DNA of 64,000 nucleotides from Paludisphaera mucosa (lineage in GTDB: Bacteria > Planctomycetota > Planctomycetia > Isosphaerales > Isosphaeraceae). The position numbers were made by a program, and so were the translations under genes. Below are positions 33,245 through 37,614 of the stretch, one piece after another. Below the pieces are notes generated by a model, which saw only the letters and a list, made by a program, of their open reading frames with translations, made no database searches and had not been told where the DNA came from. How positions within the stretch are numbered: the first letter of the stretch is position 1; every line of letters begins with the position of its first letter. Where the stretch lies: NCBI RefSeq assembly GCF_029589435.1, contig NZ_JARRAG010000001.1:1168808-1232807 (forward strand). Direction: 5' to 3'.

Positions 33245-33634
33245 TTGTCGCCTTCATCGCTCCGCGAACTCGCCACCTTCTGGACGGGCCGCCTGGCCCA
33301 CTACAACGCGCATCGCAACGACGAGCATCTGAACGCGCTTTACGAAGAGACGCTGCGTTACGTCGGCCTGCACCTGGAGAACGACCTCAGTCGTTCCGAC
33401 TACTGGACGCGAGTCCCGCTCCACCGCCGCCTGGGGGTGCTCCTCTACCTGGTCGATCAGGGCGTCGTCGAAATGTCGACGCGGCACGGCCGCCATCAGT
33501 TCATCGCCCTCCCCCAGGCCGAGGAATGGGTCGCGCAGCATTCCGCACTCCGCCCTTTCGCCAAGGCCACCCTTGAACTCGTAACGGCCCTCCGGCACCA
33601 CGCCGCCCGCGTGGCTCGCTCTCGCAAGGCCTGA
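33245..33634 (+). CDS. Conserved-type hypothetical protein, possible winged-helix fold, 129 aa
   Basis: Not recognised as a named family. The sequence is mostly alpha-helical, with a possible winged-helix pattern in PLHRRLGVLLYLVDQGVVEM then RHGRHQFIALPQAEEWVAQH. TTG 33245 is chosen because GAGGA lies about 8 nt upstream and no ATG is well placed; amino acid composition is normal, unlike shadow frames. It ends 26 nt before the end of the convergent reverse transcriptase gene. It could be an unrelated neighbour or a regulator of the RT operon; sequence alone does not decide. Confidence 0.6.
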   Translation: MSPSSLRELATFWTGRLAHYNAHRNDEHLNALYEETLRYVGLHLENDLSRSDYWTRVPLHRRLGVLLYLVDQGVVEMSTRHGRHQFIALPQAEEWVAQHSALRPFAKATLELVTALRHHAARVARSRKA

Positions 33635-33660: not shown

Positions 33661-34608
33661 TTAGCGGCCGTCGTGTGCTGAACGACGATGTCGGATGGCC
33701 TCGGGCACCTGCTCGACCATCCGCTGATACTCACGGCGGCCCTGCAGCCTCGCCAGGTCGACCGGATCCCGGGTCCACCAGGATCGCCAACGCAAGACTG
33801 CGGTCCGCCACTTCAGTTCCCAGGGGACGCGTAGCCGACCGTCCCCGGCGAGCACTAGACCCGTCACGCGGGGCCGTTCGCGGGCCTCGCCCACCTGCCA
33901 GCCCTTTCGCGGCTGAACCTCGTATCCCGAATCCCCGAGGGCATCCTCGACGGATCGCCGGAAGCCGCTCGGCATCCGGTCGTGGGGCCAGGAGAAGGTC
34001 AGGTCGTCGCCGTAACGGGTGTAAATCCCGCGTGAACGACGAACCAGTCTCAGCAGTCGGTCGTCGAGTTGGACGTTGACCAGGTTGCTCAGGCAGGGGC
34101 TGGTCGGCGCGCCCTGCGGCAATCCCTCGCGCGAGGTGCATAGCCGCATCAGAACCTGCAACGCCTCGCCACGCCAACCGTGCGCGCGAAAGCATCCTCT
34201 CACCCGAGCCGACTGCGTCGTCTCGAAAAAGTCTCGCAGGTCCACCGTCGCGATCAGGGCGCTCCTCGCATGGGGAATCGCATTGAGGACGGTGGTCGCC
34301 CCGGGATAGAATGCGGTCGCGGCGGGATGGATCGGCAGGCTGACCAGGTACCCGTCCAGCAGCCTGCGTTGCAGCCGCTTCAGCGAGGGCGAGGGTGCCA
34401 GGAGTCGACGTTCGCGGCCGTCGGGCTTGGAGATGGTGAACGGTCGATAATGGTATCGAGGGCCCAGCCGTACCCCCCGCAACTCCTCATCATCGATGTC
34501 GAGAATCGCAGCCAGCCTTGCGGTCTGGTCGGAGGGCCCAGCGTCCCTCGCGATCATGCGACGAAGACCCTCAGGGACGAGGCGGCTCAGCGGGAGACGC
34601 GCGCTCAT
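33661..34608 (-). CDS. Retron-type reverse transcriptase, 315 aa
   Basis: RNA-directed DNA polymerase with all core motifs: fingers region KPDGRERRLLAPSPSLKRLQ (61-80), NAIPH at 109-113 (the retron NAxxH motif), catalytic VDLRDFF at 122-128 with D123, LPQGAPTSPCLSNLV at 163-177, YGDD at 199-202 (YxDD box with D201 and D202), and VTG at 248-250 (the retron-specific triplet). The length is typical of retron RTs (about 300-330 aa). No maturase X domain, HNH or protease domain is present, which argues against a group II intron or RT fusion. The ATG overlaps the TGA of the SPFH gene by 4 nt (ATGA), so the two are translationally coupled. A retron RT would copy part of a structured RNA into msDNA. 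Confidence 0.88.
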   Translation of the reverse strand: MSARLPLSRLVPEGLRRMIARDAGPSDQTARLAAILDIDDEELRGVRLGPRYHYRPFTISKPDGRERRLLAPSPSLKRLQRRLLDGYLVSLPIHPAATAFYPGATTVLNAIPHARSALIATVDLRDFFETTQSARVRGCFRAHGWRGEALQVLMRLCTSREGLPQGAPTSPCLSNLVNVQLDDRLLRLVRRSRGIYTRYGDDLTFSWPHDRMPSGFRRSVEDALGDSGYEVQPRKGWQVGEARERPRVTGLVLAGDGRLRVPWELKWRTAVLRWRSWWTRDPVDLARLQGRREYQRMVEQVPEAIRHRRSAHDGR

Positions 34609-35324
34609 GAGGATCCCGCCCGCGGCGAGGAGTCGGACGCGCGGGAAAGCAACGAGTCCAGGCCGGGGATGATGAGCACGTTGCCGGATTTGGACGCCAG
34701 CTGCGACAGGGTTTCCAGCTCCTGGAGCTTCAGCAGCAAGGGGTTATCCTGGATCATCCTCGCCGTATTGACGCGGGCCCGCGCCGCGGCGACCTCATGG
34801 CGGGCGGACGTGAGGTTGGCGCGGCCCTTCAGGTCGGCTTCCACTTCCTGAAGGAACACGGCGCGGACCGAGCCGGGGAGGACCATGTCCTTGACGCCGA
34901 CCCGTGTGAGCTCGACCCCGAAGGCGTTCGCTCGCGGTGCGACGCTGATCTGCAGGTCGCGCGAGAGGGCGTCGCGCTCTTTCAGCAGCTCCTCGAGGGT
35001 GCGGCCGACGATCGCCTCGCGGAGGGTCAGTTGCAGATCCTGGTAAAGCTGCGTCTGGAAGTCGCCGACGCGATGGCGAGCGGCGATCGGGTCCGAGACC
35101 CTGTACTGGGCGATCAGGGTGACGCGGACGCCGATCTTGTCCGCCGTGAGGATCTCTTGGGCCTCGACCGTCTGGCTGACTTCGCGTAAGTCCATGCGAT
35201 CGACTTGGCGGTCCTGCCAGCTCCAGAAGCGGTAACGTCCGGGGGGCAGTAGCTCGAGGAATCGGCCGTGATGATAGAGCAACCCCCGTTCGAATTCGCG
35301 GACGATCACCGTGCGACGGAACAC
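34605..35324 (-). CDS. SPFH/slipin (band 7) protein, 239 aa, first gene of the RT operon
   Basis: SPFH/prohibitin-type domain: IVREFERGLLYHHGRFLELL, PPGRYRFWSWQDRQVDRMDL, VSQTVEAQEILTADKIGVRV, LIAQYRVSDP, then LREAIVGRTLEELLKERDAL, a region with PGSVRAVFLQEVEADLKG, and a coiled-coil-like ARHEVAAARARVNTARMI. SPFH proteins form membrane-associated ring or cage assemblies. GTG 35324 is chosen: AGAGGAG lies 6 nt upstream. A longer open frame exists to 35450 but has no start signal. The protein lacks an obvious N-terminal transmembrane helix, unusual for slipins. Its stop overlaps the RT start (ATGA). As the only partner of a retron RT it is the best candidate effector or membrane anchor; this is inference. 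Confidence 0.8.
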   Translation of the reverse strand: MFRRTVIVREFERGLLYHHGRFLELLPPGRYRFWSWQDRQVDRMDLREVSQTVEAQEILTADKIGVRVTLIAQYRVSDPIAARHRVGDFQTQLYQDLQLTLREAIVGRTLEELLKERDALSRDLQISVAPRANAFGVELTRVGVKDMVLPGSVRAVFLQEVEADLKGRANLTSARHEVAAARARVNTARMIQDNPLLLKLQELETLSQLASKSGNVLIIPGLDSLLSRASDSSPRAGSS

Positions 35325-35499
35325 GACCGGCTCCTCTCGGGGGCGCAATGAGACTGCGAGCGATACGCGAACGGACGATCCGATGATGGCGAGTCGGAGG
35401 GCTGGTGCCGGACGAATCGGCGAACGCGGGCCGATCATTGATGCCGGCACGCCGGGAGCCGATGGCTCGGGGCGAGTTCCGACAGGTATCCTGACCGAC

Positions 35500-35640
35500 G
35501 CAAGACGATCGCGGACCGCGGTTTCCCGCGGCCGGCGGCGAGACCTCCGGCCTTGCGGCCGCAGGACTCGCGTTTCACCCCCCGACGTTAGCCGTGCGAC
35601 GCCATGCGATGCACGGCTAAAACGTATCCCCCAACTGCGG
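35500..35640 (-). ncRNA. Candidate structured RNA (retron msr-msd-like) in the SPFH-RT leader
   Basis: On the minus strand, between a TACAAT -10 box and the SPFH start, several hairpins occur close together. They include TTAGCCGTGC/GCACGGCTAA (35620-35611 with 35597-35588, 13-nt loop, extendable with ACGTT/AACGT), a CCGCGG-GAAA-CCGCGG stem with a GNRA loop (35531-35516), and a 10-bp GC-rich pairing of 35565-35556 with 35534-35525 that competes with it. CCGCAG (35640-35635) can also close the region against CTGCGG. Position and density of stems suit a retron RNA, but the terminal a1/a2 repeats and the branching G were not identified, and high GC makes stems common by chance. Confidence 0.4.
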
Positions 35641-35686
35641 AACGCTCGATCCTAAAGGGGAGCGCCGCGAGACTTGAGGCGGCCTG

Positions 35687-35692
35687 ATTGTA
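35687..35692 (-). promoter_or_regulatory. Candidate -10 box of the SPFH-RT operon
   Basis: TACAAT on the minus strand (35692-35687), the same hexamer as in the candidate promoters at 26849 and 27660. It is preceded by no clear -35 box. Transcription would start near 35680, giving a leader of about 355 nt before the SPFH GTG. It lies just downstream of the rlmN terminator-like hairpin. Confidence 0.35.
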
Positions 35693-35780: not shown

Positions 35781-36818
35781 TCAGCCGACGCCGGCGAGGG
35801 TTCCGCAGGCGGCCTGGATGTCCTTGCCCCCCGAGTAACGCCGGACGATCGGCTGGCCGACATGTCGGGTCAGGGCGTCGCGGAAGGCTTGCAGCTCCGC
35901 CGTCGTCGGCGGGGCGTACCGGCCCGAGGGGTCGGTGACTTCGATCAGGTCGACGCGGACGGGGGTGTCGCCGATCAGCACGCCCAGGGCCTGTGCGTCG
36001 TCCTCGCCGACGTTCACCCCGGCGATGCAGACATAGGCCAGGGTCACGCGGCAGCGGCGGGCCAGGGCGAAACGTCGGGCCGCGGCGACGACCTCGGCGA
36101 CGGGCCAGCGCGACGCGACCGGCACCAACTCGCGACGCTTGGCGTCGGTCGCCGCGCCGAGGCTGATCGCCAGTCGATAGCGATGCCCTTCGCGGGTGTA
36201 GCGGTCGATCTCCGGGACGAGGCCCACGGTGCTGATCGTGATCGCCTTCGCCCCGATCGAGCCGGCCGACGAGCAACGCAGCAGGTCGGCCGCCGTCAGG
36301 ACGTGGTCGTAGTTGAGGAACGGCTCGCCCATGCCCATGAACACGGCGCCCGTCACCCGCCGCCCCTGGCCGCGGACGATCTCGCGTGCCTGGAGGAACT
36401 GGTCGATGATTTCCCAGGCCTGCAGGTTGCGTCGCGAGGTCATCCGGGCCGTCGCGCAGAACGTGCAGCCCATCGCGCAGCCGACCTGAGACGAGAGACA
36501 GAGGCTGACCGCCCCCGGCTTGTGGAGCGGGATCAGGACCGTCTCGAGCGCCAGCCCTTCACTCGTCCGGAACCTCAGCTTCTGGAATCCGTCGCCCGGC
36601 GAGACGACCGAGGCGTCGAGCGTGAGCCTCGGCAAGGGGAGGGGAGAGACGGCCTCCGCGAGCCGCCTTGGGATCTGGGATTCCGCCATCCAGCGCGACG
36701 GGTCGAGCACCCCGCGCTGGAAGACGGTGGACAACAGCTTTCGCGCGACCCCGGCGTCGCAGCCCCGGCCCGCCGCCCACGTCTCCAGCTCGCCCGGCCG
36801 GACGTTCCTCGGATCCAT
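35781..36818 (-). CDS. rlmN: 23S rRNA/tRNA adenine-C2 methyltransferase RlmN-type radical SAM enzyme, 345 aa
   Basis: Radical SAM enzyme that methylates adenine C2 in 23S rRNA (and some tRNAs). The iron-sulfur cluster motif is GCAMGCTFCATARMT with C114, C118 and C121. The substrate segment AVFMGMGEPFLNYDHVLTAA and the C-terminal SGGKDIQAACGTLAG, with C338 in the position of the methyl-accepting cysteine, are RlmN hallmarks. The Cfr branch (C8 methylation) is closely related but not obviously favoured here. ATG 36818 is chosen; the 23 extra N-terminal codons to 36887 lack a start signal. It is encoded upstream of the retron operon on the same strand but separated from it by a hairpin, so it is probably an unrelated housekeeping gene. 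Confidence 0.9.
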   Translation of the reverse strand: MDPRNVRPGELETWAAGRGCDAGVARKLLSTVFQRGVLDPSRWMAESQIPRRLAEAVSPLPLPRLTLDASVVSPGDGFQKLRFRTSEGLALETVLIPLHKPGAVSLCLSSQVGCAMGCTFCATARMTSRRNLQAWEIIDQFLQAREIVRGQGRRVTGAVFMGMGEPFLNYDHVLTAADLLRCSSAGSIGAKAITISTVGLVPEIDRYTREGHRYRLAISLGAATDAKRRELVPVASRWPVAEVVAAARRFALARRCRVTLAYVCIAGVNVGEDDAQALGVLIGDTPVRVDLIEVTDPSGRYAPPTTAELQAFRDALTRHVGQPIVRRYSGGKDIQAACGTLAGVG

Positions 36819-37614
36819 CGTCGCGTCGTCTCCCCGCCTGATTCGTTCCCACGGTCGACCCGAGAGTGGTCCTAGGGCTCTCAGCATAGCGAAGCGACAC
36901 CCGCCGAAGAATTCCAGACGGCGCGGCGATTCGTGCTGCGGCCCGTTCGAGACCAGGCGGTATGGTGCATTATTATCAAGTGGATTTCGCGCGTCGGTCG
37001 ATCGAGATCACCCTTAAGTCAAGGAGACTCCTCGGTTTCGAGTCCTTCGAAAACACCATCGAAGCCAATCCGACGAGGTTTTTCCGCCGGACATCGGCTA
37101 GACTCGAGGTGGCCATAAATTCCATCAAGTTTGTGGTTTACGTCGAACTGAGATCCTTGTTTGACGCGAGTATCGTGGCCTGGCCGAGGGGATGGACGAA
37201 CCCGAGCGGACCCGAATCGAAGCCATTCCGAAGCCATTCCGAAGCCAGACCGAAGCCGAACGGGAGAGTCGCCGACAGGCGCACAATATCCGAGCCTCCT
37301 CGACGAACGCCGTAAGGGCGAAGTGGGTCGATGCGCTCGCATTTATGGGGGATTCGGTCGCTCTCGAGCCGTCGCAAGAAACTTCGAATCCTTGAACAAA
37401 CCATCGGGACGGACCCGTCGTAGGAAACGGAGATTCGCGTGCAATCAGGCCGGCGGGTCCGGGACGCCTCGTCCAAGTGACTGCCGGATCAAGGTTTGAG
37501 GACGGCCGACGGGCTCGCTCGGCGGTCGTCCGGCATGGCGCTCGACGGGGGCCGCCGGCTTCCGCAAGGGCGGATCACCGCGGTCCCTCCAGGGACTACA
37601 ACAGGAGCAGGTTG
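36819..37614. other. Intergenic region between rlmN and htrA, with short tandem repeats
   Basis: About 796 nt without a convincing gene; possible frames have shadow composition. At 37219-37262 four adjacent 11-nt units occur: GAAGCCATTCC twice (37219 and 37230), then GAAGCCAGACC and GAAGCCGAACG. The segment 36960-37150 is more AT-rich. No tRNA or sRNA was recognised. Confidence 0.5.
37219..37262. repeat. Short tandem repeat, four 11-nt units
   Basis: GAAGCCATTCC occurs twice in direct succession, followed by GAAGCCAGACC and GAAGCCGAACG, with GAAGCC conserved in every unit. It is non-coding and upstream of htrA. Confidence 0.7.

Follow-up and report, generated by a model that had tools for sequence, protein, structure and literature searches.

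A conserved structured RNA upstream of SPFH and retron-clade reverse transcriptase genes in Paludisphaera mucosa

The SPFH-RT locus and its folded leader

We analyzed a 64,000-nt stretch of Paludisphaera mucosa DNA (the window), in which the minus strand carries, in order, rlmN, a leader, a gene encoding an SPFH/Band_7 protein and a reverse transcriptase (RT) gene. Coordinates below are positions within the window unless they are prefixed with an L-number, which designates a locus. The leader extends from a TACAAT box to the GTG start codon of the SPFH gene at 35324, and the SPFH stop codon overlaps the RT start. Beyond the RT gene lie a convergent gene for a 129-aa protein of unknown family and then an MMPL transporter gene. 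Directly 3' of the TACAAT box, the leader contains a structured noncoding RNA (ncRNA) of approximately 286 nt, and the approximately 70 nt preceding the SPFH start are variable and lie outside this functional RNA. The main features are as follows.

35781-36887 (-): rlmN, the 5' neighbor of the leader
35687-35692 (-): TACAAT, a -10-like box shortly 5' of the RNA
35393-35680 (-): ncRNA body, starting before P1 and ending with the P3 3' arm; homologous RNA at every SPFH-RT locus; minimum free energy (MFE) z -3.8
34605-35324 (-): SPFH (Band_7, stomatin-like) gene; Pfam PF01145, 4.8e-22
33661-34608 (-): RT gene; 315 aa, YGDD active site, retron-clade RT

In relatives, a TATAAT/TACAAT/TANANT-like box was found 7-10 nt 5' of the RNA. 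Because a promoter scan of the leader region gave no full sigma-70 -35/-10 match, the leader promoter is treated here as putative.

A sequence-only reading of this DNA had proposed that the leader was a candidate retron msr-msd RNA, and the stems that it named were found where it had placed them. Its perfect 10-bp stem (TTAGCCGTGC/GCACGGCTAA, 13-nt loop) was located at 35588-35620 and corresponds to the helix called P2 below, and its CCGCGG-GAAA-CCGCGG hairpin was located at 35516-35531. The CCGCAG/CTGCGG pairing was also present (35635-35640/35559-35564) but was not preserved in relatives. When the MFE of the leader was compared with those of dinucleotide shuffles, a z of -3.79 was obtained and 0/100 shuffles were equally stable; over 16 homologous leaders, the mean folding z was -4.26. 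Further, the nucleotides of an upstream extension of the SPFH frame were conserved but the frame was broken in relatives, which rules out a coding explanation and bears out the earlier statement that no protein gene accounts for the region. The folded RNA that the leader encodes is real and strongly conserved.

From 5' to 3', the RNA consists of P1, hairpin 1, P2, the P3 5' arm, a domain enclosed by P3 and the P3 3' arm. Enclosed by P3 are P4, which is variable, a GAAA-type hairpin that some lineages have, stem A, an internal loop (RGAUACC/UYAA), stem B and a variable arm. The elements are located in the window as follows.

35669-35678 (-): P1 5' arm, with partner bases just 3' of hairpin 1; weakly supported overall
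35637-35668 (-): hairpin 1, GCGG-CGCTC...GAGCG-TT-CCGC, with a conserved 2-nt bulge; in 16/16 aligned leaders
35588-35620 (-): P2 hairpin, sequence-variable; own versus cross-lineage arms compared; absent in L052
35577-35586 (-): P3 5' arm, long-range helix; own versus cross-lineage pairing compared
35538-35571 (-): P4 hairpin, variable; short or missing in L020 and L052
35516-35531 (-): P5 hairpin, CCGCGG-GAAA-CCGCGG; GGGAAAC core in some lineages
35492-35499 (-): stem A 5' strand; 95.3% paired, two-sided changes in 8/8 pairs
35485-35491 (-): internal loop strand RGAUACC (here GGATACC); near-invariant in 16 sequences
35479-35484 (-): stem B 5' strand; 94.8% paired, two-sided changes in 6/6 pairs
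35442-35447 (-): stem B 3' strand; same covariation test as its 5' strand
35438-35441 (-): internal loop strand UYAA (here TCAA); conserved in 16/16
35430-35437 (-): stem A 3' strand; same covariation test as its 5' strand
35393-35402 (-): P3 3' arm, long-range helix; own versus cross-lineage pairing compared

Compensatory changes, for which the sequence-only reading had suggested aligning orthologous leaders, were abundant. Across the 16 leaders, stems A and B together were 95.1% paired compared with 62.7% after shuffling (0/500 shuffles as good), and both sides had changed in 14/14 pairs. When the two stems were slid by 1-3 columns, pairing fell to 46% or less. In hairpin 1, 98.6% of positions were paired and five pairs showed two-sided changes.

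For P2 and P3, we compared the 5' arm of one sequence with the 3' arm from another lineage, a control that retains composition, and scored the longest uninterrupted helix. This measure replaced RNAduplex cross-pairing over long regions, which told us nothing, since GC-rich stretches will pair with any sequence. The arms of P2 formed 10.7 bp with their own partners versus 5.3 bp across lineages, and P3 formed a mean helix of 11.6 bp versus 7.2 bp; both have been rebuilt with unrelated sequence in separate lineages. The GGGAAAC core of P5 was common to Isosphaeraceae, L067, L020 and the relic L091 (described below), although not to all lineages. P1 stood out clearly in L070/L069 (CACTGAC/GTCAGTG), as it did in the relic (GCCTTC/GAAGGC). 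The distance from the P3 3' arm to the SPFH start was 22-104 nt where measured. In L061, L020 and L062, this interval holds additional hairpins that are strong (for instance, GGTAGAGCG...CGCTCTACC in L061) and are possible processing or attenuation sites.

Distribution of the RNA and the SPFH-RT genes

The RNA was found upstream of SPFH-RT pairs in 18 genomes, of which three are Anaerolineae and the others planctomycetes, a distant class among them. It thus accompanies both genes in two bacterial phyla. The gene order of the window is shared by three genomes of its genus, and in an Anaerolineae metagenome-assembled genome (L020) the RNA, SPFH and RT lie amid unrelated genes (a LacI regulator and a sugar ABC transporter); the RNA could be aligned across all five. 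The AT-rich L052, which belongs to the distant planctomycete class, also carries it. Class-level searches detected ten more SPFH-RT loci, with the RNA at 10/10, and a search with a model of the 5' domain of the RNA alone revealed two further SPFH-RT loci (L090 and L092), giving the total of 18.

When a covariance model (R1) was run over 65 sources, mostly RT loci without SPFH, it matched at SPFH-RT loci only. Among 95 genomes of one family, 10 of the 12 RNA matches adjoined SPFH and RT genes, two of these loci being previously unknown, and the remaining two were truncated relics. The three strong matches among 298 Anaerolineae were exactly the three SPFH-RT genomes; weaker matches (E > 6e-4) lacked RT and SPFH and were taken as chance. 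The relics, in G1134 and G1186 (L091:5582-5669 (-) and L093:4802-4889 (-)), still have the promoter, P1, hairpin 1, P2, the 5' arm of P3 and the GAAA hairpin; past this point the sequence runs into an unrelated gene beside mutS, and neither SPFH nor RT is present. Thus, apart from two truncated relics, the RNA is confined to SPFH-RT loci.

In the related genome G029, approximately 94 bp separate the 129-aa gene from rlmN, versus 2.16 kb in the window, and the promoter, RNA, SPFH and RT are missing together, as a block. In G028, a different gene occupies the site. The RNA, the SPFH protein and the RT are gained or lost as a block and probably form one heritable, transferable unit. A scan of genome contigs with the RT returned a single locus, L020. 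Scans of viral collections with the RT, the SPFH protein and a DNA pattern found no member, and tblastn against plasmids and phages returned distant retron RTs only.

The RT, the SPFH protein and their relation to retrons

The RT clearly belongs among retron RTs, as judged from sequence and predicted structure. In a PDB profile search, the best match was the retron Ec86 RT (1e-44), and DRT2, DRT9 and group II RTs reached only approximately 1e-7 (DRT2/DRT9, 3e-7 to 5e-7). The AF2 model of the RT (pLDDT 86.9) gave 18 top Foldseek matches that were all retron RTs. With a diversity-generating retroelement also considered, the similarity of the RT points to retrons. YxDD was invariant in the 18 SPFH-linked RTs, which formed a single clade (support 0.998, tree of 61). 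Although the RT matches models of retron RTs, it does not reach the NCBIfam cut-offs set for named retrons, and its PADLOC scores were nearly equal for RT_XIII, RT_other, RT_III-A and the outgroup; its NCBIfam Drt2 score was 45.6 bits versus a cut-off of 390. No other relative of the RT was detected in its own genome at E<=0.001.

The nearest RT relatives are those of a sister clade of 31 planctomycete RT loci (L023-L049, L058 and L075-L077). A UUU hairpin core was found in the leaders of 27 of these 31, mostly with a1/a2 arms; the arm count is below 27, and arm detection likely chose the wrong pair in several of the 27. Where cleanly resolved, the arms covary (GCCGUCUUG/CAAGGCGGC, UGUUGCCUUG/CAAGGCAACG and UAUGUCUUG/CAAGACAUA) and enclose approximately 110 nt, so that these RNAs are shorter than the SPFH-clade RNA. 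Their conserved, canonical-looking layout (a1 ..CUUG|G.GGUGC, a UUU hairpin GAUGUUUCGUC, a variable last hairpin and GCAAG.. a2) is not matched by Rfam. The 5' end of the SPFH-clade RNA (CUU-GCGGCGCUC), in the P1/hairpin 1 region, resembles the corresponding sister element (CUUG-GCGGUGCUC). The fetched flanks of the sister-clade loci contained no SPFH gene, and several of their RTs seem to bear a hydrophobic N-terminal extension.

The SPFH protein matched PDB stomatin (6e-29), and stomatin was also the best Foldseek match of its AF2 model. Because the model has a pLDDT of 79.5 and a pTM of 0.57, the domain arrangement is uncertain. With its first predicted strand beginning at residue 3, the protein is predicted to lack the usual membrane segment at the N-terminus. 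Like stomatin/slipin proteins, HflK/C, prohibitin and the vault protein, it has an SPFH fold followed by a C-terminal helix; unlike stomatin/slipin, it has no membrane hairpin before the fold and is genetically tied to an RT and an RNA. The L052 protein (L052:5435-7045 (-)), which is encoded before the RT, differs further in holding three SPFH repeats in tandem. Identity to the window protein was 81-45% for SPFH and 64-34% for the RT; that the SPFH protein is the better conserved of the two would be unusual for a toxin-like effector.

We followed the definition of retrons in PMC12548924 and PMC8867640. In common with retrons (RT, msr-msd ncRNA and accessory/effector; Ec86/Eco1, Ec67/Eco2, Ec78/Eco7 and Kva2), the locus has a related RT sequence and predicted fold, an upstream ncRNA and an accessory gene between RNA and RT in a single small operon. 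It differs in that the SPFH-clade RNA has another core and lacks the outer a1/a2 arms and the UUU msr hairpin, and in that SPFH is not among the PADLOC retron effectors. The claim of an msr-msd RNA thus held in one respect, a covarying ncRNA that lies where it was predicted to lie, 5' to the accessory gene and a retron-clade RT, and failed in its canonical anatomy. A comparison with Rfam covariance models, proposed in the same reading, found no retron or other relevant family in the leader at gathering or permissive (E<=5) thresholds, a weak test because the sister-clade RNAs fail to match too. Because two retron-defining RNA features fail, we do not call the system a retron outright, though it appears to work like a retron-type RT-RNA system.

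Interpretation and alternative explanations

These comparisons suggest that the leader RNA acts in trans as the cognate RNA of the retron-clade RT two genes downstream, and that RNA, SPFH and RT form one unit with SPFH as the accessory protein; we give this reading a probability of about 0.74. As a whole, the system is best read as an ncRNA-SPFH-RT system of retron origin whose RNA has been remodelled. Its ancestor was probably an ordinary retron, given that the sister RTs belong to retrons whose RNAs look canonical and that the 5' GCGGYGCUC element is similar to the one found there. Several observations weigh against this interpretation. The UUU-loop msr hairpin was found in 0/18 SPFH-clade leaders, and an a1/a2 pairing joining the RNA ends was not above control (own 16.0 versus cross-lineage 14.4, for the 5' end and the region after P3); P3 is a long-range helix, yet not terminal in the RNA. 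P1 is statistically weak. The operon contains no known retron effector and the SPFH protein has no PADLOC match, so a defense role is without direct support. Further, the window neighbors are housekeeping genes with no defense island, and synteny is stable across the genus.

If this were a genuine retron msr-msd whose layout has shifted, P3 would be a1/a2, P4 and P5 would be msr hairpins and the stem A/B arm would be the msd, and the RT would make 2'-5' branched multicopy single-stranded DNA from a G near P3. P3 is indeed long-range, sequence-variable and complementary, like a1/a2, the RT is of the retron clade, and sister retrons of the same phylum carry canonical-looking RNA. However, the conserved hairpin 1 and P2 sit 5' of P3, no conserved G adjoins P3, sequence conservation is highest at the base of the supposed msd and the UUU hairpin is absent, and we consider this layout rather unlikely. 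The absence of retron hallmarks would be expected if an RT of retron descent read a template RNA without a 2'-5' branch, in the manner of DRT2 or DRT9, which likewise use a structured upstream ncRNA with the RT; a large multi-helix RNA with a conserved core and variable arms also suits such a template. Since the RT is far nearer to retron RTs (1e-44) than to those of DRT2 and DRT9 (approximately 4e-7), this explanation appears unlikely as well.

Its position in the 5' leader, and an internal loop whose near-invariant bases resemble a ligand or protein site, would fit a riboswitch or attenuator-like RNA acting only in cis on the SPFH-RT operon. No described RNA family in Rfam was matched, however, no terminator was found at the RNA 3' end in the window, and the sister RTs have retron-like RNA in the matching place, which together make a purely cis-acting leader improbable; the truncated relics without genes are compatible with a cis leader and a partner RNA alike. 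Chance folding of intergenic DNA deserves mention in a GC-rich genome, where single hairpins come cheaply, but compensatory changes over 16 sequences from two phyla, including an AT-rich genome, and the 0/500 shuffles leave it a negligible probability.

If the RNA is the partner of the RT, it would be transcribed separately from its own promoter and bound by the RT through the conserved core, which consists of hairpin 1 together with the RGAUACC/UYAA loop separating stem A from stem B. The RNA would most likely be both partner and partial template, being partly copied into a short complementary DNA (cDNA), most likely from a part that varies in sequence and length, either P2 or stem B at its outer end. 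SPFH proteins form rings. The soluble stomatin-like protein, from a ring- or cage-forming family, would presumably oligomerize and serve either as a scaffold holding the RT-RNA-cDNA particle or as an effector restrained by it. Retrons defend against phage and, by analogy, use of this system in phage defense is likely. More tentatively, a retron-lineage RT may have given up the msr-msd layout for a new RNA architecture (hairpin 1, the P3-closed domain and the RGAUACC/UYAA core) within a soluble SPFH ring, forming a vault-like RT ribonucleoprotein.

Retron-clade RTs are recognized by the stereotyped form of their msr-msd RNA and by effectors drawn from a limited list. The well-defined clade described here has kept the RT, yet its RNA is different and strongly conserved and its partner protein is stomatin-like; this RNA appears to be a new kind of RT partner RNA. 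A literature search combining SPFH, stomatin or band 7 with retrons found no such system described; most subscription journals were outside its scope, so this is not proof of novelty. If the preferred reading is correct, the system would add a new accessory type and indicate that retron RNA can be rebuilt, and it may offer a new producer of single-stranded DNA. The canonical sister clade and the remodelled clade would form a clean evolutionary pair in which to study the demands that an RT makes on its RNA.

Two other genes were also noted. The gene at the SPFH-RT site of G028 (L097:601-1540) encodes a secreted-looking DUF1080-type protein, identified by eye. The 129-aa protein (33245-33634 (+)) has no Pfam or NCBIfam match, and its gene is kept beside the site across the genus, with or without the SPFH-RT unit there.
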